A DNA stretch of 64,000 nucleotides, from the NCBI RefSeq assembly GCF_018128065.1, contig NZ_CP072360.1, positions 1,306,501 to 1,370,500 on the forward strand. Reading direction: 5' to 3'. Position numbers and translations under genes: made by a program. Under the pieces are notes generated by a model, which was not told the DNA's origin, did no database searches, and saw only the letters and a program-made list of their open reading frames with translations. Of the stretch, positions 3,408-36,683 are shown in pieces (position 1 is the stretch's first letter; every line of letters starts with the position of its first letter). The DNA comes from Prevotella melaninogenica (GTDB lineage Bacteria; Bacteroidota; Bacteroidia; Bacteroidales; Bacteroidaceae).

Positions 3408-3471
3408 CAAATGTACTTACGGAGTAAGTATTCAAAAGCAGCTTTTCCCTTACTGCGTACTTGTGGCTTCG
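3408..3471 (-). promoter_or_regulatory. Promoter with operator copy 1 of the ICE regulon
   Basis: On the minus strand the -7 box TACATTTG (3408-3415) faces the HTH pair at 3376-2758. Exactly 36 bases upstream of it sits the conserved 20-mer (plus strand ACTGCGTACTTGTGGCTTCG, 3452-3471). The same pair of elements with the same spacing occurs at 13971-14034, 32681-32744 and 36247-36309. An activator site is inferred from the upstream position. Confidence 0.65.
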
Positions 3472-3597
3472 ATATGGATACTTTTGTCGTATGGCTTTTG
3501 GAATCATACAGAAAAATCTCTATTCAGTACATATTTAGCATACAATCCGGACGATTTTAACTCCCGAACTTTGCAGCATAATCAAATTCAAAGCGTC

Positions 3598-3951
3598 ATG
3601 GATGTCATAACAATCGAAAGTAAAGCCTACCACGAACTGATGGGCAAGATAGAGAAAATCCTCCGTTATGTAGAGAAAGAGGAAAAGGCAAAGATAGAGT
3701 ACGAAAACCGCCTTGTTACCAACGATGAGTTAGCCGAGATCCTCGGTATCAGCAAGCGTACCCTTCAGCGTATGCGCAGTACGGACAGAATCAGCTACAA
3801 GATGATTTATGGGCGTTGCTACTACGACCTGCATGACATCGAGAAGGCGATACGCAACAAGAGCCTGTACTGCAATCCTCAGAACCTGAAAGAGCTACGG
3901 CATAACTTCGAACTTAAAAGCAGGAGGGTAAAGAATGGAACTATTAGATAG
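3598..3951 (+). CDS. Helix-turn-helix DNA-binding protein (excisionase/MerR-like)
   Basis: The frame is open further upstream, but ATG at 3598 gives the family-typical start (MDVITIESKAYHEL), matching the start of the gene at 3376 (MEVITIEKKTYEAM), so I chose it; the product is 117 residues. A coiled helix precedes the HTH (VTNDELAEILGISKRTLQR, about 41-59), followed by a wing (IYGRCYYDLHDIEKAI). The stop overlaps the next HTH gene by 17 bases, suggesting translational coupling. The regulator/excision-factor role is inferred. Confidence 0.8.
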   Translation: MDVITIESKAYHELMGKIEKILRYVEKEEKAKIEYENRLVTNDELAEILGISKRTLQRMRSTDRISYKMIYGRCYYDLHDIEKAIRNKSLYCNPQNLKELRHNFELKSRRVKNGTIR

Positions 3952-4255
3952 AGAGACCTTCCTTGAATGGATGGAACGCATCATGAAGCGTTTTGATGAG
4001 TTGAAACAGACGGCTCCCGACATCCCCCAACGTCCGATGATAGATGGAGAACCGCTGCTGGATAACCAAGAGGTCTGTCTGATGCTCCAAATCAGCAAGC
4101 GCACCTTGCAACGTTATCGGGCATCGGGTACACTTCCTTTCCACATCGTTTACCACAAGACGTGGTATTTGGAATCGGAAATCCTTGCCTTTATGCAAAC
4201 CCACTTTACGGAGAACCTCAAACGCAAGAGGAAGAGAGTGCCCAAAGACACGTAA
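3935..4255 (+). CDS. Helix-turn-helix DNA-binding protein (excisionase/MerR-like)
   Basis: A 106-residue HTH_17-type protein with the DNA-binding segment LLDNQEVCLMLQISKRTLQR (about 40-59), a wing (VYHKTWYLESEILAFM) and a basic tail (KRKRKRVPK). It overlaps the preceding HTH gene. Together with the leftward pair it makes four related small DNA-binding proteins within 1.5 kb, a common arrangement in this ICE family. It ends just before a bidirectional terminator facing the methylase-helicase gene. Confidence 0.82.
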   Translation: MELLDRETFLEWMERIMKRFDELKQTAPDIPQRPMIDGEPLLDNQEVCLMLQISKRTLQRYRASGTLPFHIVYHKTWYLESEILAFMQTHFTENLKRKRKRVPKDT

Positions 4256-4272
4256 TTTTGGATTGATCGCAA

Positions 4273-4320
4273 CAGCAAAGCTCCCGTTTTGTCGTAATGA
4301 CAAGTCGGGGGCTGCTGCTT
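4273..4320. terminator. Bidirectional terminator between convergent genes
   Basis: The stem AGCTCCCG/CGGGGGCT encloses an inner TTGTC/GACAA hairpin, in the 75-base gap between the rightward HTH gene and the leftward methylase-helicase gene. Confidence 0.6.
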
Positions 4321-4330
4321 GAATTACAGA

Positions 4331-10372: not shown

Positions 10373-12502
10373 TTACCTTCGGGATTTGCCCGGTTTTTTA
10401 CGCTCGGGGAAGACAAAGACCGTCTTGAACTCTCCGTCCAAGGAGAGAGAAGCCTCGAAGCTCTTGCCCGTTTTGGAGGTAAAGCCCTTGATGATGCCAG
10501 TCTCTCCGTTTACCGCCAACTGCGTCAGTTGCTCGTCCGTGAGGCTCTTGCCTGCCACGCTGCGGAAAAGCGTCAGCCCACAATCGGCATCAGAGCATTT
10601 GGCACATCGGGGATAGAAGACCAGTGAGCCTTTGCCGCATTTGGGACAATGGATGTCGCTCTGTTTTTTGGGGAAGAGGATTTTGGAGGAGAGCAGTTCG
10701 TCGGTAATCTGTGTGGCGTAGTTTTCGATGCCCTTGCGAAACTCTTGCTCTTTCAACTCTCCCCGTTCGATTCTCGCCAAGTCCGCTTCCCACTGTCCGG
10801 TCATCTCGGCATTACCGATTTTCATTTCCCTAACGATGGAATAGACGGCAAGTCCTTTCTCAGTAGGGACGAGCGACTTCTTTTGGCGCACCATGTACTC
10901 GCGTGCAAAGAGGGTTTCGATGATGGCGGCACGGGTAGCGGGCGTGCCGATACCGCAATCCTTGAGCTGCGCACGCAATTCTTCGTCCTCCAACTCTTTG
11001 CCCGCCGTCTCCATCGCTGCCAACAGCGAACTTTCCGTGTGCAGGGGCTTGGGCTTGGTCGTTCCTTGTGCCAGCGAACAGGCACAGAGCGGAAGTTGCT
11101 TACCTTCCTCCCATTGAGGGATGATGATGCCTTCTCCATTCTCTCGGCTTTCCCGTTCTTCGGCTTCCGCCTGCTCCTTGTCTTTTTTTCTGCTGTTTTT
11201 GAGGACGGCACGCCAACCCTCTTCCTTGATGATTTCACCTTTGAGGATAAACTTCACATCCTCGCAGGCGGCAGTAACCGTACTGACATCCTTCACGCAA
11301 CGGGCCGAGAAGGCTTCGAGCATACGTCCGACTATCATATCGTAGATGGCTACTTCCTCTCCGAACATGTCTATCGGCTTCTTGCCCGTAATGAGCAGGG
11401 CGTGGTGGTCGGTCACTTTCTTGCCGTCCACCGAATGCGCATTAAATTCGGTCAGTCGGCGGGCATGGACACCCCAGATGGGATGGTCGTGCAAAAAGGC
11501 TATCAGGGCAGGTATTTCGGCAAAGACATCTTCGGGAATATATCGGCTGCCCGTGCGAGGATAGGTGATGTATGCCTTTTCGTAGAGCTTCTGCGCCAAG
11601 GAAAGGGTCTGTTCCGCCGAATAGCCGAATCGACTGTTCGCTTCTTTCTGTAGGGTGGTCAAGTCGTACAGAAGCGGTGGCTCCTGTCTGGTCTCCTTGC
11701 GCACAATCGTTTCCACGGTGGCATAAGGAGCCTGTTTGAGTTTATCATACAGGGCGGTGGCTTCCGCCTTATCGAACCAGCGGTCGGCAGAAGAGAAACG
11801 GAAACTCTCATCACCTTCCTTTACAGTAAGGCTGAGTTGCCAGAATGGCTGCGGCTCGAACTTCTTGTTCTCCAAGAAACGGGAACAGACCATACAGAGA
11901 GTCGGAGTCTGTACCCTGCCCAAGGAGTAAGTGCCTCTTCCTGCCGCAATGGATATGGCTTGGGTGGCATTGATACCCACCAACCAATCGGCTTCGCTGC
12001 GGGCACGGGCGGCATAATAGAGATTGTCATACGCCGCTCCGCTTTGTAGATGGGCAAGTCCCTCTTTGATGGCTTTGTCCGTCAAAGAACTGATCCATAG
12101 GCGGTCGAAGGGACGGGGAATGCCCAAGTATTCGTAAATGAATCTAAATATAAGTTCACCTTCCCGTCCGGCATCGGTGGCTACGATAATACCCTCGCAT
12201 TCCCGGAAGAGTTTTTCGATGACTTTGAGTTGGGCTACTGCCACAGCATCGGCTTTATAACCTTTGCCCTCCTTAATCTGACGGGGAATAAGGGTAAAGA
12301 CGGGAGGAAGAATCGGCAGGTTCTCTTTGTGGAAACCCTTGATGCCGTAAACTTCGGGCATGGCTGCCGTTATCAGGTGCCCCAATGCCCACGTGACGGT
12401 ATAGCCGCCTCCTTCGATATAACCATTCTTCTTGTTGGTTGCCCGAACGACACGGGCGATTTCACGAGCTACGCTCGGCTTTTCTGCTATGATGACTTTC
12501 AT
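10373..12502 (-). CDS. topB: Type IA DNA topoisomerase III (Exc-like)
   Basis: A 709-residue single-strand-passage topoisomerase. The Toprim domain starts the protein (IIAEKPS with Glu7; ATDAGREGE with Asp110 and acidic residues 114/116). The catalytic Tyr is Y314 in YITYPRTGSRYI. The C-terminus has a four-cysteine zinc-finger-like segment (CPKCGKG...CAKCSDADC) and a DUF3945-like repeat (GIIKGFTSKTGKSFEASL). In CTnDOT the homologue Exc takes part in excision and regulation. It follows the DUF3945 gene by 34 bases on the same strand, and its leader holds the CCACCACTAATATCC motif. Confidence 0.93.
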   Translation of the reverse strand: MKVIIAEKPSVAREIARVVRATNKKNGYIEGGGYTVTWALGHLITAAMPEVYGIKGFHKENLPILPPVFTLIPRQIKEGKGYKADAVAVAQLKVIEKLFRECEGIIVATDAGREGELIFRFIYEYLGIPRPFDRLWISSLTDKAIKEGLAHLQSGAAYDNLYYAARARSEADWLVGINATQAISIAAGRGTYSLGRVQTPTLCMVCSRFLENKKFEPQPFWQLSLTVKEGDESFRFSSADRWFDKAEATALYDKLKQAPYATVETIVRKETRQEPPLLYDLTTLQKEANSRFGYSAEQTLSLAQKLYEKAYITYPRTGSRYIPEDVFAEIPALIAFLHDHPIWGVHARRLTEFNAHSVDGKKVTDHHALLITGKKPIDMFGEEVAIYDMIVGRMLEAFSARCVKDVSTVTAACEDVKFILKGEIIKEEGWRAVLKNSRKKDKEQAEAEERESRENGEGIIIPQWEEGKQLPLCACSLAQGTTKPKPLHTESSLLAAMETAGKELEDEELRAQLKDCGIGTPATRAAIIETLFAREYMVRQKKSLVPTEKGLAVYSIVREMKIGNAEMTGQWEADLARIERGELKEQEFRKGIENYATQITDELLSSKILFPKKQSDIHCPKCGKGSLVFYPRCAKCSDADCGLTLFRSVAGKSLTDEQLTQLAVNGETGIIKGFTSKTGKSFEASLSLDGEFKTVFVFPERKKPGKSRR

Positions 12503-12536: not shown

Positions 12537-13931
12537 TTACATTTTCATTCCCTTGGAACGCTTCTTCTCTTCTTCCTTCTGTTCCTGTCCGGCAGTAGGC
12601 TGTGTCTGTCCCTGCTTGAGCGGTTCATTCACCAGCTTGGTAGCCTCGTTGGTCTTGCCTTCGGAATTGACGGCGACCTGCGTGCGGGAAGCATTGTCGG
12701 GAGTTACCTCTTTGGCTTGGGACTTGTCAGGATTCCATTTGAGGAAGTCGAACTTGTTCTTCTCGAAATTCGGACGTACATAGGCATTGAAAGGCTCTCC
12801 TTTCTTGTCGATAAGCCCGGTCATATAGACCGTCTGACCTGCTTTGAGCTTCGCTTGCTCTTCGGGAGAGATGTCACGTCCCAACATCTTCTTGGGGACA
12901 CGCAGTTCTTTCTGCTCCGTTTGTTCCTGTCCTTCGGGAGCTTGTCTTTGGCGTTGTCCTTGCTTGGGAGAGCCGAAACGAAATTCAATAGATCGCTTGT
13001 CGGCATTGAATTGAAGGTTGGCATTGAAATGCTTTCCCATTTTGGAGGTCATGCCCTCTACATAGATGCTCCTTCCTTCCGAGAGTTCCTTTTTCTGCTC
13101 ATCGCTCAGCTTCACGCCCTTGATTTCATCGGGGATGCGTACCCTGTCGGCACTCAGGGCGATGATGTCGTTCGTCAGGCGGTCGATGCTCACGAAGCTG
13201 CGGGTCGGCTCCTCTTTGCCGGGGAAGGTCAGCTCCACGGTGCGACCGAGATTACCCGTTTCTCTGAGGGCTTTCTTGTCCTCGTCGGTGAAGGTATGCC
13301 CGAAGAACTCGCGCTCCAATTGAGGTTCCTTGCGGATGGCATGGACAACGGGAATGAATGTTCCGTCTCCGGAGGCTTTCAGGGAAAGACGGGCATCGGT
13401 ATGCAGGGAGACTTCCCCGATTTTGATGCTGATGGGAACAAGTGGAGTCTTTCTGTATTGAAGCAGGTCATCAAGATGCTTGCCCTTTTCCAGACTCTCA
13501 CGGCTTATGCCCATCTGCTCAAACTGTTCCCATTTCACCTTGTCGGGGTCAATGCCTTGGAAGGACTGTTTCTGCTCTCCCGCATAGTCCGAAGGATTGA
13601 TACGGGCGGAGTCCAGCATCTCCTTATTGGAGGGGACATCCGGTGCTTTGAGTATCTCCGAGAGCACACGTGCACTGGCAACGGCACTCTCAAAAGGCAC
13701 TTTGAAGAAGTTCAGCGGTGTGGGATGCTTGAACTGACGCATGAAGTTGGAGAGGAAATTCTCCAGCGCATTGCTGTGCTTGTCGAACTTCAGGAAACTC
13801 TGTTCATGCTCGGCGGTGGGCGGAACGGTTCTCAGCCCGCCTTTCTCGTCCGTACCTGTGACGGCTTTGAGATTCTCGTCCTTGGAATCTTTCACCAAAA
13901 GGACTTCTTGGTCTTTGATTTTTTCGTCCAT
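12537..13931 (-). CDS. DUF4099/DUF3945 domain ICE protein
   Basis: A 464-residue protein, first gene of the leftward block to the methylase-helicase. The N-terminal half matches DUF4099 (DKVKWEQFEQMGISRESLEKG, near 130-150). The C-terminal half has two DUF3945-type repeats (YVEGMTSKMGKHFNANLQ and YMTGLIDKKGEPFNAYV), the same module that ends the neighbouring topoisomerase. The tail is Gln/Lys/Glu-rich. The biochemical role is unknown; the shared repeat suggests a partner or DNA-binding module of the topoisomerase. Transcription probably begins at the operator-linked promoter at 13971-14034. Confidence 0.82.
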   Translation of the reverse strand: MDEKIKDQEVLLVKDSKDENLKAVTGTDEKGGLRTVPPTAEHEQSFLKFDKHSNALENFLSNFMRQFKHPTPLNFFKVPFESAVASARVLSEILKAPDVPSNKEMLDSARINPSDYAGEQKQSFQGIDPDKVKWEQFEQMGISRESLEKGKHLDDLLQYRKTPLVPISIKIGEVSLHTDARLSLKASGDGTFIPVVHAIRKEPQLEREFFGHTFTDEDKKALRETGNLGRTVELTFPGKEEPTRSFVSIDRLTNDIIALSADRVRIPDEIKGVKLSDEQKKELSEGRSIYVEGMTSKMGKHFNANLQFNADKRSIEFRFGSPKQGQRQRQAPEGQEQTEQKELRVPKKMLGRDISPEEQAKLKAGQTVYMTGLIDKKGEPFNAYVRPNFEKNKFDFLKWNPDKSQAKEVTPDNASRTQVAVNSEGKTNEATKLVNEPLKQGQTQPTAGQEQKEEEKKRSKGMKM

Positions 13932-13970: not shown

Positions 13971-14034
13971 CAAAAGTAAACCAAAGAAACCGTGTATGTT
14001 AGAGGTTTGAGATAACTGCGTACTTGTGGCGTCG
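13971..14034 (-). promoter_or_regulatory. Promoter with operator copy 2 of the ICE regulon
   Basis: The minus-strand -7 box TACTTTTG (13971-13978) lies 40 bases before the DUF3945 start at 13931. The operator 20-mer ACTGCGTACTTGTGGCGTCG occupies plus-strand 14015-14034, 36 bases upstream of the -7 box. No TTTG -33 element is seen at the usual distance, which fits an activator-dependent promoter. Confidence 0.65.
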
Positions 14035-14051
14035 ATATGGATGGAAGTGGC

Positions 14052-23846: not shown

Positions 23847-26132
23847 ATGAAGAAATTAGCTGAATTTGTGATACGATACCGCTGGGCGGTCATCGTATTC
23901 TTTCTTGCACTGACAGCTTTTATGGGCTTTCAGATGAAGAATGCAAGTTTTAATCCCGACCTGCTTACCTATCTGCCGGAGCATCTGCCTTCCCGCATGA
24001 ACCAAAAACAGATAGAAAAGATGTTTGGAGGAACGGATATGGTGATGATTGTCGTACAGACAGATGATGTCGTGAATGGCAAGACACTGAAGCGTGTAGA
24101 GCATTTCTCACAGGACATGCAGAACATAAAAGGCATAGAACGAGTGATGTCTGTCTTTGAATTGAAAAATGTCCGTAGTGAGAATGACGCAATGACCGTT
24201 GATGCGGCCGTGAAAATGATTCCACGGACTGCTGAAGATGTTGCCACTATTAAGAAAGAGCTTGCCGGTAACGACCTTGTCTATGGAAGCGTGATTTCCA
24301 AAGATTTTACGACCACAGCCATTATTGGATTGCTTGAACCTGGAGCAAAGGACAAGGACGTAATAGACCAAGTGGAGGCAATGATTGCCAAGTATCCCGG
24401 CACAGAGAAAGTTCTTTTGGGAGGTTCTCCGTATATGCGAATGCAGAATGCGGGAATGATGCAGAAGGATATGGCTCGGCTCATTCCTCTCGGATTGTTG
24501 TTGATGATGGTCTTTCTCTTTATCAGCTTCCGTCAGTTCAGAGGGGTATGGCTTCCCATTCTGATTGTAGTCATGGCGATATTCACGGCATTGGGTGCAA
24601 CACCTTTGTTGGGATGGAAGTTTGCCGTTACGACCATTATTTTAGTTGTATTGCTGATTGCCACCGCCAATTCCTATGGCATACACATGTTTGCCCGCTA
24701 CCAAAGAGACAATCTTCCCGGAAACAACTATACAGCAAAAGAATTGTCTGTCAAAATGGTTACAAGTCTCGGCGCTCCCATTATCTTGTCAGGATTGACA
24801 ACCATTGCAGGGTTGCTCTGTATGTTGGGACATGTGCTGATTCCCGGTGGACAGATGGGAGTTCTTGGCAGTATCGGTATCGGACTTGCCTTGATTGGAA
24901 GTCTGTTCTTTATACCTGCATTGAGTTCGGTACTTCCCAAAACCAAACCTCGATTGAGAGCGGATAACAACCCTAAAAGCAAAAGAGGAATAGGGTTAGA
25001 CAGATTGTTGGACTTTATTGCCGATTGGGTAACGAAAAAGCCCAAGACTATTTTGGCTTTATTCGTGGTCATTTCTCTAATCGGAGCAGCCGGACTGTTG
25101 CGTTTCAGCATCAACTCAAATCCCGCCGAGTTGTTCCCTGACGGACATCCTGCGAAGGAGTCCGCACAAATCATCAATAAGGAACTGGGGGGCTTCTTTC
25201 CTCTCTGTGTCGTGTTCGAAGGCGACATCAAAGACCCTGCCTTGTTGAAGAAAATTGATGATTTGGAGAAAAAGGTGCGAGAAATCCCCGAAGTGGGAAC
25301 AACGCAGTCTATCGCAAAAGTTACACGTCAGATCAGCCGTGCTCTCTATAACAAAGGCGAAGAAGGTTATGATAAAATCCCCGACACCTACGATGCCGTA
25401 TCACAATACTTCGAGTTGTATCTGATGAGCGGCAGTCAGAAGGATTTGGAAAAGATGGTGGATTTCAATTTTGAGAAAGCTCTCTTGATGATTCGTTTCA
25501 AGGAATTGAACACACCGGTATTGCGACAATGTGTTGCTCAAATCAAGGAAATGGTAAAAGATGACCCCAATGTGAAACTTGTTGGTGGCAATGCCGATGT
25601 ATTCACGGATATGGACAAGCATGTCGTAAGCGGGCAGTTCCTTTCTTTGTTGATTTCCCTCGTTGTTGTATTTATCATTATATCCCTCGGTTTCAAATCG
25701 TTTAAGGCAGGATTACTGCAAATCGTTCCACTCATGTTTGCCATGTTGATGCTTTTCGGACTGATGGGATATTTTGGTATTGACCTGAACTTTATGACCG
25801 CCTTCCAAGCCTCTATCCTTATTGGAGTCGGCGTGGACTATACGATTCATGTTGTCTGGCGGTATCGGGAGGAACGACGTGCGGGTTACGACGATAAGGA
25901 GGCTGTACATCGCTTGTTCAAGGCAACGGGACGCGGTATCGTATTCAATGCCATTGCCGTTATTATCGGATTTGTAGTTCTGCTCTTTTCAGGCTTCCTG
26001 CCCGTTCGCTTTTTCGGAATGATGATGGTAACAATCATTTTCGTATGCCTCATTGCCGCAGTGCTGCTCGTACCTGCGCTATGTATGGTGTTGAAACCGA
26101 AATTCTTGAGACAGAAAATCCATTGCAAATAA
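23847..26132 (+). CDS. RND/MMPL-type transporter
   Basis: A 761-residue inner-membrane protein with duplicated architecture: one N-terminal membrane helix, a periplasmic domain (about 35-205), five helices (about 210-355), then helix, second periplasmic domain (about 410-590) and five further helices. This is the small RND form (HpnN/MMPL-like) rather than the large AcrB type. Neighbours with beta-barrel and LolA-like proteins suggest movement of a lipid or hydrophobic compound between membranes; this is inference from context. The start is 26 bases after the barrel gene, one operon. Confidence 0.9.
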   Translation: MKKLAEFVIRYRWAVIVFFLALTAFMGFQMKNASFNPDLLTYLPEHLPSRMNQKQIEKMFGGTDMVMIVVQTDDVVNGKTLKRVEHFSQDMQNIKGIERVMSVFELKNVRSENDAMTVDAAVKMIPRTAEDVATIKKELAGNDLVYGSVISKDFTTTAIIGLLEPGAKDKDVIDQVEAMIAKYPGTEKVLLGGSPYMRMQNAGMMQKDMARLIPLGLLLMMVFLFISFRQFRGVWLPILIVVMAIFTALGATPLLGWKFAVTTIILVVLLIATANSYGIHMFARYQRDNLPGNNYTAKELSVKMVTSLGAPIILSGLTTIAGLLCMLGHVLIPGGQMGVLGSIGIGLALIGSLFFIPALSSVLPKTKPRLRADNNPKSKRGIGLDRLLDFIADWVTKKPKTILALFVVISLIGAAGLLRFSINSNPAELFPDGHPAKESAQIINKELGGFFPLCVVFEGDIKDPALLKKIDDLEKKVREIPEVGTTQSIAKVTRQISRALYNKGEEGYDKIPDTYDAVSQYFELYLMSGSQKDLEKMVDFNFEKALLMIRFKELNTPVLRQCVAQIKEMVKDDPNVKLVGGNADVFTDMDKHVVSGQFLSLLISLVVVFIIISLGFKSFKAGLLQIVPLMFAMLMLFGLMGYFGIDLNFMTAFQASILIGVGVDYTIHVVWRYREERRAGYDDKEAVHRLFKATGRGIVFNAIAVIIGFVVLLFSGFLPVRFFGMMMVTIIFVCLIAAVLLVPALCMVLKPKFLRQKIHCK

Positions 26133-26235
26133 CTTAAAAGGACTGAAAGGATAAAAGCAATAAAAGAAACAGTCAAAAGCTTATGAGCTTTTCAAAGAAG
26201 ATTGATACACGAATATTCATCAAACAATAAATACA

Positions 26236-27039
26236 ATGAAGAAAGTTTTTTTATCGGCGGTTATAATAATCGCAACCATGTGGGCAAATGTTGCTCATGC
26301 ACAAGGAGGAGTATCTCCGCAACAAGTACAACAAAAAGCCATTGAAGCCACTCGTATTGCCGGAATGGAAACAGAATCATCAATGACGATTTACAGTCCG
26401 TCCGGAGACAAACGAGTTCGCAAGATGACTATCGTCAGTAAACTCTACGAGAATGGTAGTTTGGAAAAAAAACTCATTCGGTTTATCGAACCTGCTGATG
26501 TGAAAGGCACCGGGTTTCTATCGTTCGATTATTTGAAGAAGAACGATGACAAGTGGATTTATATGCCGGCTCTTCGTAAAACCCGACGTATTGTAAGTTC
26601 AGAGAATGCCAAAAGTTTCATGGGGTCTGAGTTTTCTTACGCCGATATGTCCACACCAGCTGTCGAAGATTTCAACTATAAATTCTTGAAAGACCAAAAT
26701 GTAGGTAATCATGTCTGCTATGTCTTAGAAATTACGCCAAAGAACAAAACCATTGCCAATGAAAACGGTTTCTCTAAGAAAATAGCCTATATCGACAAGC
26801 ATATTTTTATTATCCGTAAGGCTACATACTACAATCTTGCCGGAGAGAAAGAAAAGGAGATGACCGTCTCTGCAATCACGGAAGTGGATACAAAGCACCA
26901 TAAGTATCGCTTTAAGGAGATGACAATGATTAATCTGAAAAATAAAAGAAAGTCGGTATTGAATAACAACGTTATTAAGTTCACCCCTTCAATTTCGGAC
27001 AGTTATTTCACCACTCGCACACTGGAACAAGGCAAGTAA
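26236..27039 (+). CDS. Outer membrane lipoprotein-sorting (LolA-like) protein
   Basis: A 267-residue secreted protein: signal peptide MKKVFLSAVIIIATMWANVAHAQ (written here only as positions 1-23), then a LolA/DUF1329-like fold with DKWIYMPALRKTRRIVSSENAKSF recognisable in part and GSEFSYADM. In this family such proteins accompany RND pumps and bind lipid-like cargo in the periplasm. It follows the RND gene by 103 bases, likely the same transcription unit. No catalytic residues are seen. Confidence 0.82.
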   Translation: MKKVFLSAVIIIATMWANVAHAQGGVSPQQVQQKAIEATRIAGMETESSMTIYSPSGDKRVRKMTIVSKLYENGSLEKKLIRFIEPADVKGTGFLSFDYLKKNDDKWIYMPALRKTRRIVSSENAKSFMGSEFSYADMSTPAVEDFNYKFLKDQNVGNHVCYVLEITPKNKTIANENGFSKKIAYIDKHIFIIRKATYYNLAGEKEKEMTVSAITEVDTKHHKYRFKEMTMINLKNKRKSVLNNNVIKFTPSISDSYFTTRTLEQGK

Positions 27040-27150: not shown

Positions 27151-27733
27151 ATGAAACAACTGATTGAAACAGAAACCTTTGAGTTGCTGCTATCAGACAA
27201 TAGCAAAACTGCAACAGACAATCTTATCAAGGAAATTATAAGGTTGGGGGAAACCGAAGCAAACCTTGCTTCATTGTATCGTACTCTCCATTACACTCGA
27301 TTCCATTTAGAAAGTATGACTGAAACATCAGGCATACCAACTGAAATGGGAAAAAAATGTATCAGAGCTGCTCTTTGTCATTGACACGGAGCTGGAATTA
27401 GTGAAAATGCGAATGCAGGGACTTCTTCCTGCTTTGTCCGTCAAACCCGCCAAGAAACTCTGTTGGACAGGCAAGGCAACAGATTTAGTTGAACTCCTTT
27501 ATGCTCTTGACACCTGCGACTGTATCAATGATGGAGAAATAGGTGTGGAGGAATTAGCTGATGTTCTTTCTGAAATCTTTGGAGTGGAGATAAAGAACTG
27601 CTACAACGTCTATATGAACATGAAACGCCGCAAGGATGACAGCCGTACCTACTTTCTTGATGAACTCCGTGAGAAGCTGAACAAGCGTATGGTGGAGAGT
27701 GACCTGAAAGGTGGCAAGTTCAAGAAACGGTAA
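27151..27733 (+). pseudogene. RteC-like regulator fragment, frameshifted
   Basis: Two frames join into one protein. 27151-27384 encodes MKQLIETETFELLL to TEMGKK, then shifts. Using one A fewer in the A7 run at 27350-27356, the frame continues as NVSELLFVIDTELELVKMRMQ into 27401-27733 (ELLYALDTCDCINDGEIG ... RTYFLDELREKLNKR). The latter part matches the C-terminal region of RteC, which in CTnDOT activates the excision operon. The protein is also short compared with RteC. Whether the frameshift is biological or a sequencing artefact is open. Confidence 0.65.
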
Positions 27734-28530: not shown

Positions 28531-30540
28531 TTATTTCTTGGTATTGAGTAGTTTGGAAAGTTCCGGATCATCGGCAATCCGTTGCAACTCCCGTTCCACG
28601 ATGTCCCGCACATCCGTCTTTACCCGTTCGTAATTCGCCTTGATTTCCTGTTCCAACATATCCTCTCCGTTTTCATTCGTGAAGTCTGTCAGAATGGGTA
28701 TCGGGCGGTAAGCAGCCGTTTCCTTTGCAACTTTCGCATTGTCCACTACAATCTCACAGTGGAATATCTTCTGCTCGATACGTTCGGAGAAGTTATCTGC
28801 GACCGCTCCCACGAACATTCCCTGTGTGAGCGTGGAAATCTTGCTCTGCGGAATCAGGCTGTCCATCTGTGTGGAGATGGAAGTGGTCTTATCGCTACGG
28901 GTGATGCTCATGCTCTGCCGTTTCTGAAGCACCTTGCCAAACCTCTCTGAGAGCGTCTTTGCCGTTTCGCCGACCACCTGACCGGAGAAAATGTTTCCGA
29001 CAGTGTTCATCACCACGGCAGCTTCCTTGTCTCCATAATCGCGCTTCAGTTGCGAAAAGTCCTGAAAGCCCAAGCATACCGCCACTTTGTTGCTTCGTGC
29101 AGTGGCAATCAGATTGTCGAGCCCTTTGAAGTATATGGTAGGTAGCTCATCTATCAACACGGAACTTTTCAGCATTCCTTTCTTATTGATGAGCTTGACA
29201 ATGCGCGAATTATACAACCCCAATGCTGCTCCGTAGATATTCTGTCTGTCAGGGTTATTCCCTACACACAGGATTTTAGGCTCTTGGGGATTATTGATGT
29301 CGAGTGTGAAATCATCTCCTGTCATAATCCAATAGAGCTGCGGACTTATCATCCTTGACAAGGGTATCTTGGCGGAGGCTATCTGCCCTTGCAACTGGTC
29401 AGCCGCCCCTCCGAGCCAAGCGTCCATAAAAGGAGAAAGGTAATTCTCCAATTCGGGATAAGAAGTCAGTATTGGGAAAATGTCTTCATACTTACGGCAG
29501 AGAAACTCAATAGCGTGCGGAAAGGTACAGTATTTTCCTCCCTCGAAAATGCGGAGATACCAAATGATAGCGGCAAAGAGTACGATTGGCGACTCCACAA
29601 AGAAATCTCCTTGTTTCTGTACCCACGTCTTGTTAAGGTTGAGCATGATGGTGTACGCCGACTCGTAGGCATCTGAAATGTCGCTCATGAAATCGGGGTG
29701 TATCGGATTGCAACGGTGCGACCGCCGAGGGTCGTCGAAGTTGATCACGTAAAACTTCGGCTTGACTTTATATCCTTCCGAGTGATGCAGCAAATGATTG
29801 TACACAATCGTGGAGAGGTCGGGATATTTGAAGTCGTAGCAGTAGATGGCAAAACCTTTTTCGATTTGCTGCTTGATGAAATTATTGATGATGGCATAGG
29901 ACTTACCGCTGCCCGGCGTTCCCAAGACGGAGACAGCTCGGAAAGGATTGACCACGTTTATCCACCCCTTGTTCCATTTCTTGCGGTAATAGAATCGGGT
30001 CGGCAGATTGACCGAGTACTCGTTCTCCAAAAGTCTTGTCTCCTGCATAAAGGATTCATTCTCTTGATTGAAGACATCCTCCATCAGGTTGTTCTTCAAG
30101 AGTCGGCTCATATAGAGTCCCGCCATCAGCAGACAAACATAGCCTACGGTTATCGTAAAAGTATAGAGAGCCGTATTCGCCTCTATGGGCAGTGGCAAGG
30201 CAAGTATCCACCAATTGAGGAAGAAAAAGACAAAGCCGGCGCTCATGAATGCCCATATCTTCGACCACGTGATATGCTCCTCTTTCACACCCTTTGTACC
30301 CAAACAGGAAAGCCCCATCAGTACCAGCGCAAAGAGCTTGGTGTAAAGCATATTTCCAAATAGTCCCGCCGTGCGATGGAAATTCATCAGTATCCTGTCC
30401 ACCACACCGATGTTCAGCCCCCATAGTTTGATGGCTTCATAGCAATACCAATAGAGATGGGCAACCACCAGTATGATACTTACGGCACGCAGAAAATCCA
30501 TGATTTTCGCCAGTGCTCTCAAATCGTCTTCTTGTTGCAT
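28531..30540 (-). CDS. mobC: Type IV coupling protein (MobC/TraG-type ATPase)
   Basis: A 669-residue VirD4/TraG-type ATPase that brings the relaxase-DNA complex to the conjugation channel. Four membrane helices occupy about residues 15-145, followed by Walker A GTPGSGKS (207-214) and Walker B-like SSVLIDELPT. The C-terminal part contains the TraG conserved LGFQDFSQLKRDYG. In Bacteroidota ICEs this gene is called mobC and follows mobB and mobA, as here. The 186-base gap to mobB carries three palindromic operators at 22-bp steps (30586-30645). Confidence 0.93.
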   Translation of the reverse strand: MQQEDDLRALAKIMDFLRAVSIILVVAHLYWYCYEAIKLWGLNIGVVDRILMNFHRTAGLFGNMLYTKLFALVLMGLSCLGTKGVKEEHITWSKIWAFMSAGFVFFFLNWWILALPLPIEANTALYTFTITVGYVCLLMAGLYMSRLLKNNLMEDVFNQENESFMQETRLLENEYSVNLPTRFYYRKKWNKGWINVVNPFRAVSVLGTPGSGKSYAIINNFIKQQIEKGFAIYCYDFKYPDLSTIVYNHLLHHSEGYKVKPKFYVINFDDPRRSHRCNPIHPDFMSDISDAYESAYTIMLNLNKTWVQKQGDFFVESPIVLFAAIIWYLRIFEGGKYCTFPHAIEFLCRKYEDIFPILTSYPELENYLSPFMDAWLGGAADQLQGQIASAKIPLSRMISPQLYWIMTGDDFTLDINNPQEPKILCVGNNPDRQNIYGAALGLYNSRIVKLINKKGMLKSSVLIDELPTIYFKGLDNLIATARSNKVAVCLGFQDFSQLKRDYGDKEAAVVMNTVGNIFSGQVVGETAKTLSERFGKVLQKRQSMSITRSDKTTSISTQMDSLIPQSKISTLTQGMFVGAVADNFSERIEQKIFHCEIVVDNAKVAKETAAYRPIPILTDFTNENGEDMLEQEIKANYERVKTDVRDIVERELQRIADDPELSKLLNTKK

Positions 30541-30585
30541 AGTTTTTCGTTTAATTTCGTTCTTACTTTTATGATTGTTGAAATT

Positions 30586-30645
30586 GTCTTATAAGACTTT
30601 TCAAATTGTCTTATAGGACAATTTTAATTCCCTTATAAGAGAATT
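30586..30645. promoter_or_regulatory. Three palindromic operators at 22-bp spacing
   Basis: Palindromes GTCTTATAAGAC (30586-30597), ATTGTCTTATAGGACAAT (30605-30622) and AATTCCCTTATAAGAGAATT (30626-30645) have centres exactly 22 bases apart, so a dimeric protein would bind three times on one DNA face. They lie between mobB and the start of mobC at 30540. A repressor or relaxosome-binding site is inferred. Confidence 0.7.
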
Positions 30646-30726
30646 TGACACCTCTGATAATTCCTGATAATCAACATCTTACAATCTTCGTTTTTTTTTC
30701 TACACTTTAGAGATGGAAAATACGGT

Positions 30727-31962
30727 TTATAACCGAGGCTTCTTCTGTTTCTTCTTTCTCTGCATCCGTCTACGGAACTGTTCTTCCTCCCAATCCGTTC
30801 CGTTGGCTTCCATAGGCAAATCAAGAAGACCGCCCAAGAAGGAATTTTCTTCCGACGGGAGCGTATGAGATGCAGACTGATTTTCACCTTGAGGAGTATT
30901 AACAGAGAGTTCGGGATGCGGACGGTCGAACCACTCGGCAATAGCGTTTGCCGAAAGTTCCTTGCCCAATCTCGAGCCATTGATGACACAGCCGTTGTTA
31001 TGGTCTATAAAGGTGACACCATAGAGCCGCCCTTCCTCGTTCTCTCGGAAGATGACATCAATACCCCTGTGATGCAGGTTCCCCCTGAAATCCTCTCTTG
31101 TGGCAGAACGCTTCAATGCTCCGGCTACGATTGCTTTGGTCTTAGGAGCAAGATGCTTTTCCTTCAGTTTCTCCTTTGACGCCTTGAATCTATTTTGCAG
31201 AGCTTCATATCCGACAGACTTCCCAAAGAGAGAGGATTTAAATACTTTTCCGACTTTATTCCCCTTGTCATCCGTGGCAAAGTAGAGAAGTCCCATATAG
31301 GTTTTTCCGCGTATCTCTCCCTTAACCTCCTCCACACATATATTATAGGTGGAGAGCAAAGCACGGTATTCCTTAAAACTCGGACAATGGTAGAATTTTG
31401 CTGCCGGTTTGATAACCGAAGCCAGTTGCTTTTTAAGATTCTCTCCGTCGCCGTAGCAGACTTTTTGCAGGCGAAACACTTCTTTTTCCTTCCGCATTTG
31501 CGCAGGGATCAAACCGTACTTCTGTTCCAGTTCTTTGAGAATACGGGTACTGGTATAGAAATTATTACCATCGTTAATCTTCTTTCCCCGTTCATCGACA
31601 GCTAAGGTGACAATATGCAGGTGATGCCTGTCTATGTCTTCATGCTTATAAACGATAAAGGGTTGATTAGCGTAGCCCATCTTTTCGATATACTCCCGTG
31701 CGATGGCTGAGAACTGCTCATCGGTAAGTTTGTCATCGGGATGCGGATTCAAGGAGATATGTATAACCGGTTTCTTAGTGAGGACATGACTCGGCATATA
31801 TGCCATAAAGTCCTGCATACAGGCGGATATATCGTGTGTTCCATCAGCCGGAGAGAACACTTTGTTGGTCTCCAGAATCTTGGCAATGCCCTCATTTACT
31901 TTCTCTCCATTGTACGCCAACGCGCCGTAAAGGGAACTGCCATAGTTTATCTTTGCGACCAT
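30727..31962 (-). CDS. mobB: Relaxase/mobilization nuclease (MobB)
   Basis: A 411-residue relaxase that nicks oriT and pilots the single strand. The N-terminal domain shows candidate tyrosines (Y7, Y12, Y17) and the metal-binding histidine motif in HEDIDRHHLHIVT (His113, His114, His116). The C-terminus after about 300 is charged (RKKKQKKPR). It overlaps the mobA gene by 16 bases. Bacteroidota ICEs use this MobP/MobV-related relaxase class, known as MobB. Confidence 0.92.
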   Translation of the reverse strand: MVAKINYGSSLYGALAYNGEKVNEGIAKILETNKVFSPADGTHDISACMQDFMAYMPSHVLTKKPVIHISLNPHPDDKLTDEQFSAIAREYIEKMGYANQPFIVYKHEDIDRHHLHIVTLAVDERGKKINDGNNFYTSTRILKELEQKYGLIPAQMRKEKEVFRLQKVCYGDGENLKKQLASVIKPAAKFYHCPSFKEYRALLSTYNICVEEVKGEIRGKTYMGLLYFATDDKGNKVGKVFKSSLFGKSVGYEALQNRFKASKEKLKEKHLAPKTKAIVAGALKRSATREDFRGNLHHRGIDVIFRENEEGRLYGVTFIDHNNGCVINGSRLGKELSANAIAEWFDRPHPELSVNTPQGENQSASHTLPSEENSFLGGLLDLPMEANGTDWEEEQFRRRMQRKKKQKKPRL

Positions 31963-32360
31963 TTCTCTTGAAATTCACGGGTTAGATGTACGATTTCGCC
32001 TCCGACAGCCGCCAATTCGAGTGTCAGTTTCTCCAGTTGGGCAAGCATCGCAAAGGCTTTTTTCTCGGTGAAATTGCTCTTTAAGGCGACCACAGCTTGG
32101 TTATAATTCACCCCGACACTGCGAAATTGTCCGTACAAAGTCGTCAGTTTTTGATAGTAATCAAGCAGTGAACGATCTACTTTTATCACTCGGAAAGTCT
32201 CATCAAAGACCCTTGCCTTGATGAAAACAGCCCTGTTCGGGACACCTGACTGTTCATAAAGCGTCAGGAAACGCGCAAACTCCGTGTCCGTAAACCGAAC
32301 CATGCAACAATGGCTGGCTTTCTCTTTTTTCAGGGGTCTCCCCACATGTCTCTTTGTCAT
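31947..32360 (-). CDS. mobA: Relaxosome accessory protein (MobA)
   Basis: A 137-residue protein with an N-terminal ribbon-helix-helix-like segment (MVRFTDTEFARFLTLYEQSGV) after a basic start (KRHVGRPLKKEKA), then helices ending in a coiled stretch. It is the typical MobA of Bacteroidota conjugative elements, expected to bind oriT and help the relaxase. The start is preceded by the leader motif CACTAAAATCCAAAGTAAA. The region upstream (32361-32560) is the expected oriT. Confidence 0.85.
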   Translation of the reverse strand: MTKRHVGRPLKKEKASHCCMVRFTDTEFARFLTLYEQSGVPNRAVFIKARVFDETFRVIKVDRSLLDYYQKLTTLYGQFRSVGVNYNQAVVALKSNFTEKKAFAMLAQLEKLTLELAAVGGEIVHLTREFQEKWSQR

Positions 32361-32560: not shown

Positions 32561-32680
32561 TCGAGTCCCTCAAAAAAGAACGCTTTATGCCTCGAAGGCT
32601 TCGGCTTACCGCTTGGGTGCAAAGTTACTAAGCGTTGTGCCTAAATCACTTACCTCTTACGGAGCCACAAATACGCAAAT

Positions 32681-32744
32681 CGAAGCCACAAGTACGCAGT
32701 TAGCAAAAAGGGCAGAAACAAGGGGATAAAGGCTTCTATATTTG
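32681..32744 (+). promoter_or_regulatory. Promoter with operator copy 3 of the ICE regulon
   Basis: The operator (reverse complement, CGAAGCCACAAGTACGCAGT, 32681-32700) is followed after 36 bases by the -7 box TATATTTG (32737-32744), reading toward the ParA/DUF3408 genes. A second, weaker half-site GCCACAAATACGCA lies 21 bases upstream (32664-32677), suggesting tandem binding. Confidence 0.65.
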
Positions 32745-33156: not shown

Positions 33157-33939
33157 ATGAAAAAGAAACCTGTTTTCATTGCCTTCTCCACCCAAAAGGG
33201 CGGTGTCGGCAAAACGACCTTTACGGTCTTGGCGGCAAGTTACCTGCACTATGCCTGCGGGTATAACCTTATTGTGGTGGATTGCGACTATCCGCAATTC
33301 AGCATCAATGCCATGCGTCAGCGTGACGCACAGGGCGTGGATCGCAACCCCGCACTGCAAGAATTGGCAGCCACCCAATTCTCCGAGTTACAAAAGCCTA
33401 CGTACACCATCCTTTGTGCCACGGCAGAGGCAGCCGTGGATACGGTCAGGGAATATCTGGACACGCACGAGCCGGATACGGATTTCGTCTTTTTTGACCT
33501 GCCCGGAACCATCAACAATGACGGTGTGCTGACCACTCTCTCCGGTATGGATTACATTTTCACACCCATCTCCGCCGACCGTATATCCTTGGAAAGCACG
33601 CTGAGCTTTTCAGCCATCATCAAGGATGCGATAACCGACAATACAGACACTGCCAACAAAGGGATCTACCTCTTTTGGAACATGGTGGACGGCAGAGAGA
33701 AAACACCCCTCTATGCGATGTATGAAAAGGTCATTGCCGATTTGGGACTTCCCATCTTAAAAACGGCAGTCCCCAATACGACCCGCTACAAAAAGGAGGT
33801 AATGGAGGAGGGTACGACCCTCTTCCGTTCAACCATCTTTCCCGCCTCTCGCACGCTGCTTAGAGGCAGTCGTCTGAAAGAGCTTGTGGAGGAAATCTTG
33901 TCCATCGTAAAACCTGAAGCATATGGTAGGAAAGAATAA
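33157..33939 (+). CDS. ParA-family ATPase
   Basis: A 260-residue deviant Walker ATPase: KGGVGKTTFTV near residues 14-24, VVDCDYPQ near 40, and FFDLPGT near 112. Such proteins partition plasmids or, in ICEs, may support maintenance or positioning of the transfer apparatus. It begins the rightward block that leads to the tra operon and overlaps the following DUF3408 gene by 17 bases, implying translational coupling. A second ParA-like gene lies at 35353. No ParB is visible; DUF3408 proteins may serve as DNA-binding partners (inference). Confidence 0.92.
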   Translation: MKKKPVFIAFSTQKGGVGKTTFTVLAASYLHYACGYNLIVVDCDYPQFSINAMRQRDAQGVDRNPALQELAATQFSELQKPTYTILCATAEAAVDTVREYLDTHEPDTDFVFFDLPGTINNDGVLTTLSGMDYIFTPISADRISLESTLSFSAIIKDAITDNTDTANKGIYLFWNMVDGREKTPLYAMYEKVIADLGLPILKTAVPNTTRYKKEVMEEGTTLFRSTIFPASRTLLRGSRLKELVEEILSIVKPEAYGRKE

Positions 33940-34351: not shown

Positions 34352-34352
34352 T

Positions 34353-34730
34353 ATGAAACAGAAAAAAGATCGACCAATGACAGGTCATAAGTCCTGCAGA
34401 GAACGAAAAAGCGTCTCTTCAAAAGTAACCATCCGTAACTCCACCACGCTCATCGAACATTCCGAGGGACACCCTACAGGTCTCCTTCAGGAAGAGAGAA
34501 GCGATTACGAAACCGCCTTTCTTCAACCCCTGAACATTGGAGACCGAAAGGGCGTGTTCATTTCCAAAAAGACACAGGAAGAGATTTCCGAAATCGTCTA
34601 TGTGGCAGCCGCAGGCAAACTGACGATTGGGGCATTCGTAGAACATATTCTCCGGCATCACTTAGAGAACTATCATGATGAGATAGATGCCTTGTTCGAA
34701 CAACAGTTCCGTAAACGTTTCGAGCGATGA
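34353..34730 (+). CDS. DUF3408 family protein, second copy
   Basis: A 125-residue paralogue of the preceding gene. I chose ATG at 34353 (MKQKKDRPMTGHK), one base after the upstream stop, rather than an earlier in-frame ATG that would overlap more. The basic N-terminus leads to the conserved part DRKGVFISKKTQEEISEIV and IGAFVEHILRHHLENY, parallel to its neighbour. The 4-base overlap with the next gene indicates coupling. Confidence 0.83.
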   Translation: MKQKKDRPMTGHKSCRERKSVSSKVTIRNSTTLIEHSEGHPTGLLQEERSDYETAFLQPLNIGDRKGVFISKKTQEEISEIVYVAAAGKLTIGAFVEHILRHHLENYHDEIDALFEQQFRKRFER

Positions 34731-35323
34731 AGCAGGTGATTGTTATTCTGCTGTCGGTAGGCTTAGCCTATCTCGGCAGCGTACAGGTCGTCCGCTTTCT
34801 ATACGGGCGCTATTGGAGTGCCGTGAGACTCTATCGTGACTTGCAACTCTTTTTCAGGGAACGGGGCAAGGGCAAAGTCGTCGTCACCATCCGTATCCCC
34901 CAAAAGGAATCCTCCCAAGAGGAGAATGTCCTTTTAGCCGAGTTGCCCATTGAGACCGAAAAAGAGGAATCACAGGATGAGAACCCAGACTCCGGAGGGT
35001 TGAAAGAAAACGCTCCCGTCATTCCCGAAGAAGAGGATTATGTATTGGTGGAAGTCCAAGGTGAAAGCCACTCCTTTTCGGAAAGCATCACAGCGGAAGA
35101 GCTGCAACAAATGGGTAATGTCCTCTCTTGCAAAAATGCTCCGATAGAGGAAGCTGCGAAAGCCGCTGAAACCATCTATAAGATACACGACTCCCCTATG
35201 TTCCAAGCGATTAAGAAAGCGGCCGGGGAACGTGTCCGCGAGCTGCTGGAGCGCGTTGCCGAAGAAGCTCCGAAAGAGGTTCAGTCAGGCAACTTCGATT
35301 ACAAACGATTTATCAAGACATAG
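34727..35323 (+). CDS. Conserved ICE membrane-anchored protein
   Basis: A 198-residue protein with one N-terminal membrane helix (VIVILLSVGLAYLGSVQVV), a short basic stretch and then a strongly acidic, probably cytoplasmic, region (EKEESQDENPDSG) and a helical C-terminus. It matches the class of small proteins found between the ParA/DUF3408 genes and the tra operon in CTnDOT-like elements. I do not recognise a biochemical function. It starts four bases before the previous stop. Confidence 0.7.
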   Translation: MKQVIVILLSVGLAYLGSVQVVRFLYGRYWSAVRLYRDLQLFFRERGKGKVVVTIRIPQKESSQEENVLLAELPIETEKEESQDENPDSGGLKENAPVIPEEEDYVLVEVQGESHSFSESITAEELQQMGNVLSCKNAPIEEAAKAAETIYKIHDSPMFQAIKKAAGERVRELLERVAEEAPKEVQSGNFDYKRFIKT

Positions 35324-35352
35324 TATTCACCCACTCAAAGAAAAGAGAAAAT

Positions 35353-36093
35353 ATGAGTAAACCCATTTATCTCGCCATCGCTTCCCCCAAGGGAGGTGTC
35401 GGCAAAACCTCGCTTACGGTACTTGCCGCAAGCATTCTGCATTACCACAGAGGATGCGATGTCGCCGTCGTGGATTGCAACCATCCCGTCTATACCATCG
35501 CCCGTCTGCGGCAACAAGAGTCGGAAGAACTGAATCATCAAAACCTGATGCGTCTGAAGCATCGGGCATCCTATGCTCCTTATCCGATTATCTGCGCTCC
35601 GGCGCGGGAAGCCCTGAACCGGGTGGAGCGACACTGTGCGGACAATCCTCCTCGCTGCATCCTCTTCGACCTCCCTCCATTGATGCGTACCGAAGGGACG
35701 GTGGAGCTGCTTTCAGCAATGGATGCCGTCGTCTTTCCCGTTACGGGCAGTCCGATGGATATGGAAGCCGTCCGCCATTTCATAGACATCTTGGGAGAGC
35801 AGATACTGACGATGGGCAAAGGCAATATCAAGGAGCTTTACCTGCTTCGCAATATGACACAGGCTTGGGAACGTGAGGAAGCCGACGAACGCTGCCGCAC
35901 CCTTGGCGATGAAACGGGAGTCCTCTTGATGCAGACCTCATTGAGCCACTCCCGTTTGTATCGTCCGCTGCTTTCCGAACGCAGAAGAGGGGTATGCACC
36001 CTCTTCCCACCCCACGGAGGGAAGTTGAGCAGGCTCTGTATTGAGTTAGGTAATGAGCTTCACGAAATCCTGCAACGCCTATGTACCGAATAG
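35353..36093 (+). CDS. traA: Second ParA-like ATPase (TraA-type)
   Basis: A 246-residue ATPase with the deviant Walker A KGGVGKTSLTV (about 13-23), VVDCNHP near 41 and LFDLPPL near 108. It is related to but diverged from the ATPase at 33157. In CTnDOT-type elements a ParA-like protein opens the tra region and is called traA; the symbol is used by position. The stop overlaps the next gene by 13 bases. Confidence 0.85.
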   Translation: MSKPIYLAIASPKGGVGKTSLTVLAASILHYHRGCDVAVVDCNHPVYTIARLRQQESEELNHQNLMRLKHRASYAPYPIICAPAREALNRVERHCADNPPRCILFDLPPLMRTEGTVELLSAMDAVVFPVTGSPMDMEAVRHFIDILGEQILTMGKGNIKELYLLRNMTQAWEREEADERCRTLGDETGVLLMQTSLSHSRLYRPLLSERRRGVCTLFPPHGGKLSRLCIELGNELHEILQRLCTE

Positions 36094-36683
36094 TCCTTGT
36101 CCTTCTCTTGCTCTACCTTTTGTGGTTGCTTCTTTTTCTCTTGTATGAGGGGAAAAGAAGAAAAAAGAGAACACCCCCAAAAGAGCCTTTTCAAACGGTC
36201 AATGAAGCCGAAATCATCGGTAAAAGTCACTTCAAACTCAGCCACTCGACGCCACAAGTACGCAGTTATCCAAAAGGCGAGGCAGAAGCAAAAAAGGCTT
36301 CTATATTTGCCCTCGAAAATGGACAAGAGCCATCGGAAGAGCCAGATGATCTGCCCGACATAGACGAGATTCCTTTAGTGTATGAATCTTCGGATGCTCC
36401 ATCCTTTGAAGAAGAGGAAGATGAAGAACTTCCCGTATCGGGAGAAAGCGAATATGCCACGGGAATTGATTTTGAACGGGTGCTGGAAGCCTTGGCGGTC
36501 ATTCACCGAAATGCCTCTTCCATAGCGGAGCGACAAAGGGCCGGTGAGACATTGACCGAATTGGAAGGCACTCGTCTGATGGAAACACTCCGAAGCGACA
36601 AAGTTCGTTCTTCCACGATAGACGATATTGTCCGCAACCGTTTTGAAGAGCTTTATGTTCCTTCTGACGGCAGGGACAAATAG
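36081..36683 (+). CDS. ICE transfer-region membrane protein (TraD-position)
   Basis: A 200-residue protein: N-terminal helix (IVLVLLLLYLLWLLLFLL), basic cap, an acidic middle (EEEEDEELP) and a C-terminal helical domain (FERVLEALAVIHRNASSIA). Similar proteins occupy the slot before traE in Bacteroidota ICEs. The gene contains operator copy 4 and a -7 box inside its coding region (36247-36309), which encode part of an apparently nonconserved linker (STPQVRSYPKG). The function is unknown. Confidence 0.72.
   Translation: MYRIVLVLLLLYLLWLLLFLLYEGKRRKKRTPPKEPFQTVNEAEIIGKSHFKLSHSTPQVRSYPKGEAEAKKASIFALENGQEPSEEPDDLPDIDEIPLVYESSDAPSFEEEEDEELPVSGESEYATGIDFERVLEALAVIHRNASSIAERQRAGETLTELEGTRLMETLRSDKVRSSTIDDIVRNRFEELYVPSDGRDK
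36247..36309 (+). promoter_or_regulatory. traEp: Intragenic promoter with operator copy 4
   Basis: The operator reverse complement CGACGCCACAAGTACGCAGT (36247-36266) lies 35 bases before the -7 box TATATTTG (36302-36309). The whole segment, including AAAGGCTTCTATATTTGCCC, resembles 32681-32747. It lies inside the previous gene and points to traE, 520 bases downstream, so it probably drives the tra operon. Confidence 0.6.

Follow-up and report, generated by a model that had tools for sequence, protein, structure and literature searches.

In the Bacteroides ICE CTnDOT, which is governed by the RteABC cascade, the proteins Xis2c, Xis2d and Exc control excision as well as the tra and mob genes. 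Xis2d binds between mob and tra, Xis2c and Xis2d together activate tra, and the xis2c promoter bears an inverted repeat to which RteC binds. Three further described systems resemble parts of the locus presented here. BldC of Streptomyces is a MerR-like protein, described in PMC5859096 as binding direct repeats head-to-tail. In ICEMlSymR7A, according to PMC11963761, an activator that arises from a programmed frameshift, FseA, drives an HTH_17 excisionase, RdfS, which controls excision and transfer, and NBU1 is reported to answer to the ICE regulators RteA and RteB (PMC1976400). The -7 consensus of Bacteroidetes sigma-ABfr promoters is TAnnTTTG (as quoted in PMC7366714).

The DNA analysed in this work, in the following termed the window, comprises 64,000 nucleotides of Prevotella melaninogenica (contig NZ_CP072360.1). 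It contains a tyrosine integrase, HTH_17 excision genes, topoisomerase III and RteC, of which the C part was matched, and the Bacteroidales MobA/B/C and TraG/TraM profiles were matched above their curated cut-offs. The element is an ICE of the CTnDOT superfamily. Among the window ORFs scanned, which are a part of all ORFs, a tetQ-rteA-rteB module was not seen, and a search for an att direct repeat gave none. CTnDOT has the same gene set and its own cognate repeat operator, which occurs at traA, at tra and before HTHb and is 36 nt away from the mob box; however, its repeat letters differ, and in the window topoisomerase III belongs to a separate operon that has an operator to itself.

Operator Copies and Repeat Structure

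A sequence-only reading of the window had described four identical 20-mers, and a motif search gave exactly these four, with exact matches at 3452-3471 and 14015-14034 on the plus strand and at 32681-32700 and 36247-36266 on the minus strand (0 expected). Allowing up to three mismatches yielded no further match in the window, and the 20-mer was seen in 0 of 100 shuffled sequences. The rest of the genome contains two more copies, with one and two mismatches, within a remnant ICE on the other contig; the stretches of this remnant that were fetched yielded neither tra genes nor mobA or mobB. The 20-mer is real and exact but incomplete, as it forms the promoter-proximal half of an operator of about 37 bp, which reads as four direct repeats of 10-11 bp each. 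The repeat periodicity within the operators appears at lags 21, 11 and 10, the repeat letters of the window operators are GCCA-like, and the sequence flanking the copies is unrelated from copy to copy.

Operator 1 (37 bp, 3452-3488, minus strand), which contains the 20-mer at 3452-3471, lies before the targets HTHb (3098-3376, minus) and HTHa (2758-3060, minus), both HTH_17 proteins. Operator 2 (14015-14051, minus) precedes the gene of a DUF4099/DUF3945 protein (12537-13931, minus), the first behind this operator, and topoisomerase III (10373-12502, minus). Operator 3 (32664-32700, plus) is centred between the -7 boxes of mob and traA. Operator 4 (36230-36266, plus), whose outer half is the weakest among the four, is situated inside orf36081 before traE-traF-traG (36829-39995, plus). 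All 14 non-redundant orf36081 homologues carry the site. Their third-base identity is 0.88 within the operator, 0.82 just after it and 0.72-0.73 further out; this conservation proves little, because the amino acid identity rises too (0.87, 0.84 and 0.72-0.77 in the same zones) and the loci came from motif searches. A search of literature listings retrieved nothing in print on this operator.

Promoters and Spacing

The sigma-ABfr -7 box was present at the window sites: TACATTTG at 3408-3415 (minus) for the HTHb/HTHa promoter, TACTTTTG at 13971-13978 (minus) for the DUF4099/topoisomerase promoter, and TATATTTG both at 32737-32744 (plus) for the traA promoter and at 36302-36309 (plus) for the internal tra promoter. 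The gene traA (ParA-like, 33157-33939, plus) is the first of the operon behind operator 3. Recomputed from the box coordinates, the distances between 20-mer and box are 36, 36, 36 and 35 bases, as the first reading had given them. The four promoters named there hold, but a fifth had been overlooked: a reverse box, TAACTTTG at 32620-32627 (minus), belongs to the mob promoter, and operator 3 is located midway between the two divergent boxes with 36 nt to each. Since operator 3 thus also faces the mob box, five promoters are involved, and the mobABC operon (28531-32360, minus) is the fifth target. Of 32 mob|tra sites, 31 have a reverse box at exactly 36 nt, compared with 0 of 58 other sites.

The spacing was also fixed where it had been left free. 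In a scan in which core and box were defined by pattern, whereas spacing (23-53 nt), outer repeat and context were free, all Bacteroidales matches listed sit 37 or 38 nt core-to-box, figures which rest on 80 of 117 stretches. The same 37 or 38 nt separate core and box in 24 of 25 sites that were collected without requiring a box, the four of the window included.

The claim that a -33 TTTG is mostly absent was borne out: only one of 33 non-redundant sites has a TTTG 16-24 nt before the box, and the other 32 have none. Because the operator lies upstream and there is no -33 element, an upstream activator, as suggested before, is likely at these promoters. The opposite effect, with the operator as a silencer on which a BldC-like protein would keep the transfer operons off for as long as it stays bound, is improbable, as promoters lacking the -33 TTTG are expected to be activator-dependent and CTnDOT genetics indicate positive control by Xis2c/Xis2d. 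What speaks for such a silencer is the repression of whiI by BldC: the site used there lies at -50 to -80 according to PMC5859096, which is near the position found here.

Conservation in Other ICEs and in Small Elements

In related ICEs, across genera, the motif precedes the operons known from the window, with the distance unchanged. The proposal of an ICE-wide regulon was thereby supported; ICEs lacking the motif before these operons would have contradicted it, and the motif is present there. In CTnDOT-type and other ICEs the layout is kept at large, but the repeat letters differ. Among 30 MobA loci picked without the motif, 27 show repeats with other letters and have a box pair 97-99 or 108-109 nt apart, two sizes which differ by about one repeat, and the remaining three (L297, L301, L313) have no box pair. 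Searches of G094, G000_C1b and G000_C2b found no operator. The element occurs in oral and gut bacteria. Repeats, distances, common targets and conservation can be read directly from the sequences, and on this basis operator and regulon are strongly supported.

It is most improbable that the copies lack a regulatory role and represent a repeat family of recent origin or mere chance. In favour of this view, they are near-identical and one is located within a gene; against it, their flanks are unrelated, the distance to the -7 boxes is constant, the two-sided arrangement occurs at the divergent promoter only, and other ICEs show the same layout with different letters.

The operator of the window is also present in two kinds of small mobilizable element. 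This recalls the helper dependence of NBU1, as far as it is described in PMC1976400, with the difference that here the common sign is a tandem-repeat operator which occurs in ICEs as well; the response to a helper is putative.

The Candidate Binder

Any of the four HTH genes had been considered as the source of the activator, and this choice can be narrowed. HTHa and HTHb are themselves targets, and both are absent from the 40 kb fetched of Bhep_C2, in which the layout is kept; they were set aside, which leaves HTHc (3598-3951, plus) and HTHd (3935-4255, plus), HTH_17 proteins in the xis2c and xis2d positions of CTnDOT. HTHd matches HTH_17 (PF12728) above cut-off and is tentatively predicted to adopt a fold of the excisionase/MerR/BldC type, and its recognition helix follows the repeat letters in part. 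HTHc is unlikely as the sole specificity factor: in two CTnDOT-type ICEs it is 56% identical, whereas HTHd is identical, RteC is 92% identical and the operators are nearly the same. HTHd is most likely the operator binder, to judge from these comparisons.

No operator was found at the HTHc/HTHd promoter. A different conserved block, at which RteC may enter, precedes HTHc (3512-3546, plus). Among the loci searched for this block it was found at the HTHc promoter only, except for one weak 22-base match with four mismatches in L238.

In the model that we favour, the binder is a small HTH_17 protein of the excisionase-like type, and HTHd, alone or together with HTHc, is its most likely identity. 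It would line up head-to-tail along the operator repeats, with one protomer for each helical turn. The -7 boxes of the operons for conjugation, mobilization and excision-accessory functions follow about 36 nt downstream. The bound protein would activate promoters without a -33 element, and the one operator between mob and traA would serve both directions. RteC would probably act on the block before HTHc, giving a cascade from RteC via HTHc/HTHd to HTHb/HTHa, DUF4099-topoisomerase, mob, traA and tra. As a whole this model is probable, with binder, activation and RteC step as the parts that we infer. It is supported by the fixed spacing and the same targets across genera, by the reverse box at mob|tra sites, by the repeats at lags 21, 11 and 10, by the MobA loci in which box pair and repeats recur in other letters, by the HTHc/HTHd promoter without operator and the helix of HTHd, and by the role of Xis2d and Xis2c in CTnDOT. 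The predicted fold of HTHd points in the same direction, as BldC, according to PMC5859096, binds 9-bp direct repeats head-to-tail. Both systems would share an HTH_17-type fold, which for HTHd is a prediction, and in both a site comprises two or four direct repeats of about one turn each; however, the BldC repeats described there are AT-rich, in contrast to the GCCA-like repeats of 10-11 bp in the window, and BldC is a developmental regulator, whereas the candidate here is an ICE excisionase-like protein.

Alternatively, RteC itself could bind the operator and directly activate all five promoters, with HTHc/HTHd acting in excision only. This is unlikely: at four loci with the layout (L299, L300, L302, L312) RteC is absent from the contig or from the surrounding 1 Mb, seven of 34 operator genomes lack RteC, the HTHc promoter bears another block, and RteC of CTnDOT targets the inverted repeat at the xis2c promoter. 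On the other hand, L213/L214, L231 and similar compact elements keep RteC beside MobA and the operator, with 97 and 91% identity, respectively, to the C part in the window, several genomes with compact elements have no HTHd at 1e-15, and RteC is described as controlling CTnDOT excision and transfer genes (PMC1976400). L299 and L300 show the layout with neither HTHd nor RteC found nearby, which would fit some regulator other than HTHa-d and RteC; such a binder is quite improbable, as in the fully read ICE types RteC and the HTH_17 genes are the only conserved DNA-binding candidates seen.

With HTHd as the favoured binder, a broader and more tentative reading can be formulated. The CTnDOT superfamily may drive conjugation by one design, an excisionase-type filament, short and head-to-tail on 10-bp repeats about 36 nt from the -7 boxes. 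One mob/tra filament would serve two directions, and its length steps of one repeat would give the box pairs of 97-99 and 108-109 nt. The repeat letters would represent ICE dialects, one of which is copied by mobilizable elements that answer a helper ICE. RteC, as the activator at the top, would in one of the dialects be gated by a conserved programmed frameshift. Taken together, these statements have somewhat less than an even chance of being correct. For a large Bacteroidales ICE family, some members of which carry tetQ, the results provide a rule on the sequence of the transfer-control region. If the model is true, the ICE to which a small element answers could be predicted from the repeat dialect, the mob/tra regulator would be testable on a defined 37-bp site, an excisionase would double as a filament-type activator of two divergent promoters from one site, and the repeat number at that site would change in whole steps.

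Two Overlapping Frames in rteC

The rteC region (27151-27733, plus) consists of two overlapping frames, the upstream one at 27151-27384 and the downstream one open from 27320 to 27733. A search of literature listings found no rteC frameshift in print, and for the C part of RteC AlphaFold gave no usable model (pLDDT 54.9). The arrangement of RteC and HTHd resembles that of FseA and RdfS, with the RteC frameshift itself only probable; a difference is the operator, as PMC11963761 reports that no consensus RdfS motif was found. In the window, a conserved purine tract of 10 nt is located at 27348-27357 (plus). The gene is split over two frames at this tract, at one and the same place, in 33 of 40 unique loci, and in 32 of these 33 the stop of the upstream frame follows 24 nt on. 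A conserved tract in a fixed frame relation is the pattern expected of a programmed frameshift, which rteC probably undergoes.

The 20-mer and Its Promoter Spacing

The sequence-only reading had described one 20-mer that recurs at a fixed distance from −7 boxes (TAnnTTTG). Four exact copies were confirmed, at 3452-3471, 14015-14034, 32681-32700 and 36247-36266, with no further match at three or fewer mismatches, and the 20-mer occurred in 0 of 100 dinucleotide shuffles of the window. Each box is on the correct strand, and the gaps measure 36, 36, 36 and 35 nt as described. The copies precede HTHb/HTHa, DUF4099/topoisomerase III, mob|traA and, within orf36081, traE-traG.

The window contains an ICE of the CTnDOT superfamily, whose Bacteroidales MobA/B/C as well as TraG/TraM score above the curated cut-offs and which also encodes a tyrosine integrase, four HTH_17 proteins (HTHa to HTHd) and a topoisomerase III; the RteC match covers the C-terminal part. 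The operator-bearing blocks are separated by cargo (14105-27039) comprising ABC transporters, a TonB-dependent receptor, an AraC-family regulator, an MMPL-type transporter and a LolA-like protein, and a cas1 gene (34-663) is located just beyond the integrase end. In the rest of the genome two copies with one or two mismatches were detected, both within a remnant ICE. This remnant (L048/L049) has kept two operators (HTHb, DUF4099) and MobC in part, and its fetched stretches showed none of the tra genes and neither mobA nor mobB.

Recurrence across Genomes

A match with at most two mismatches was present in 13 of 60 genomes, including the window's own, and several strong copies within one ICE were found in this genome and four others (G012, G016, G017, G029). 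A search that did not require a promoter box yielded 25 sites, among them the four of the window, and in 24 of these the 14-bp core of the motif lies 37 or 38 nt away from a box. A wider scan of one genome per species, in which the pattern fixed core and box but left the flanks free and allowed any spacing of 23-53 nt, gave 117 stretches, of which 80 were listed. The pooled set (window and loci L037-L135) comprises 106 unique sites, with a spacing of 38 nt in 68 and 37 nt in 22. Thirteen sites at 59 nt are copies of the outer repeat; the remainder are one site without a box, one at 39 nt (an actinomycete) and one at 28 nt (Nocardia).

The 90 sites at 37/38 nt are distributed over the mobA to traA interval, or DUF3408 replacing traA (32), the region ahead of DUF4099/topoisomerase (21), ahead of HTHb (18) and inside orf36081 ahead of traE (15), with four left outside these classes. 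Related ICEs lacking the motif before the same operons had been named as evidence against a shared regulon; in the related ICEs found here the motif is present, with the same targets and the recurrent spacing.

Operator Anatomy

The full operator spans 37 bp, and the 20-mer is its half nearer the promoter. Across 33 non-redundant sites (27 at 38 nt, six at 37), profiled column by column, conservation begins 21 bp ahead of the core, and self-similarity against column shuffles is seen at lag 21 (p 0.001), lag 11 (p 0.024) and lag 10 (p 0.052). The operator at the mob|tra site, GCCACAAATAC GCAAATCGAA GCCACAAGTAC GCAGT, is made up of four 10-11-bp repeats. Tested one at a time, none of the window's operators reached significance at lag 10/11, and two of the four did so at lag 20/21; the outer half is weakest in site 4. 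The sequence-only reading had mostly seen no −33 TTTG, and 32 of the 33 sites indeed lack a TTTG at 16-24 nt upstream of the box.

In 31 of 32 mob|tra sites, and in 0 of 58 others, the outer repeat has a reverse −7 box at a distance of exactly 36 nt. This geometry places the mob|tra operator centrally between two divergent promoters (36 + 37 + 36 nt) and, as judged from sequence, makes mobABC the predicted fifth target.

The Same Layout with Other Repeats

In the CTnDOT-type ICE L247/L248, which carries tetQ-rteA-rteB-rteC, the repeats differ in their letters while their positions at traA, at tra and ahead of the HTHb orthologue are unchanged, with 36 nt to the mob box. ICEs of B. heparinolyticus and B. 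pyogenes likewise carry other-letter repeats at traA and tra, the mob box being 36 and 35 nt away, respectively. The operator was not found in the ICEs G094, G000_C1b and G000_C2b.

As a motif-independent set, 30 MobA loci were taken from 58 matches in 60 genomes from the same genus as G128; two (L284, L306) are the B. pyogenes ICEs already examined. Of the 30 loci, 27 contain two divergent boxes separated by 95-112 nt (300 shuffles: mean 0.25, maximum 3), and three show no such pair. The distances are bimodal, 97-99 nt in nine loci and 108-109 nt in 18, about one repeat apart. Within 14 non-redundant loci, GNCA units stand at offsets 36, 46, 56 and 66 in 11, 10, 10 and nine cases, and the lag-10 self-match is 0.538 versus 0.267 in 1000 shuffles (largest 0.329).

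HTHd and HTHc occupy the positions of Xis2d and Xis2c of CTnDOT, in which an excisionase also controls transfer. The same is described for ICEMlSymR7A in PMC11963761. The CTnDOT-type ICEs L277 and L248 share an identical HTHd, but their HTHc proteins have no more than 56% identity, pointing to gene replacement inside the HTHc/HTHd operon.

Small Mobilizable Elements

The window's operator was also found in two kinds of compact element. The first (L213/L214, L231) carries tandem integrases, RteC, MobA and DUF3408, with an additional MATE gene in L213/L214; the similar L232 has no RteC within the fetched 20 kb. In the second (loci among L215-L224) the operator is followed by an HTH pair, usually with tandem integrases, a primase-like gene and a relaxase (Mob_Pre in L217, the one locus whose genes were run through Pfam). 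RteC is absent from seven of 34 operator-bearing genomes, and HTHd, the favoured operator binder, has a match at 1e-15 in 18 of them, with at least 83% identity in ten of these. The compact elements would depend on a helper ICE for the activator, comparable to NBU1, which requires RteA/RteB according to PMC1976400.

The open-access literature searched yielded no description of the repeat operator, of its 36-nt spacing to both sides, of the steps in its length or of its sharing with small elements, nor of the rteC tract treated below; since some CTnDOT papers lie outside this literature, an account of the CTnDOT site may well have been published already.

rteC in Two Frames

In the window, rteC (27151-27733) is spread over two frames that overlap, and a purine tract of 10 nt lies at 27348-27357. 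The comparison covered 40 unique loci whose C part is 70% identical or more; 33 of them share a tract of exactly ten purines (2-5 G, then 5-8 A) with a common end position; the exceptions are L188, L196, L181, L202, L225, L178 and L182. The upstream frame stops 24 nt past the tract in 32 of the 33. In 19 non-redundant loci this frame is free of stops over the 120 nt preceding the tract, compared with 2.4 and 1.9 stops per sequence in the other two, and its peptide is poorly conserved (pairwise identity 0.29 versus 0.20-0.21), and the downstream frame past the tract is stop-free and conserved (0.80 versus 0.54-0.55). Decay would not preserve one frame relation, and separate translation starts in the downstream frame are possible; the tract probably serves programmed frameshifting or transcriptional slippage. 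A parallel case is FseA of ICEMlSymR7A, which is produced through a programmed frameshift (PMC11963761). Loci with the tract comprise ICEs and small elements alike.
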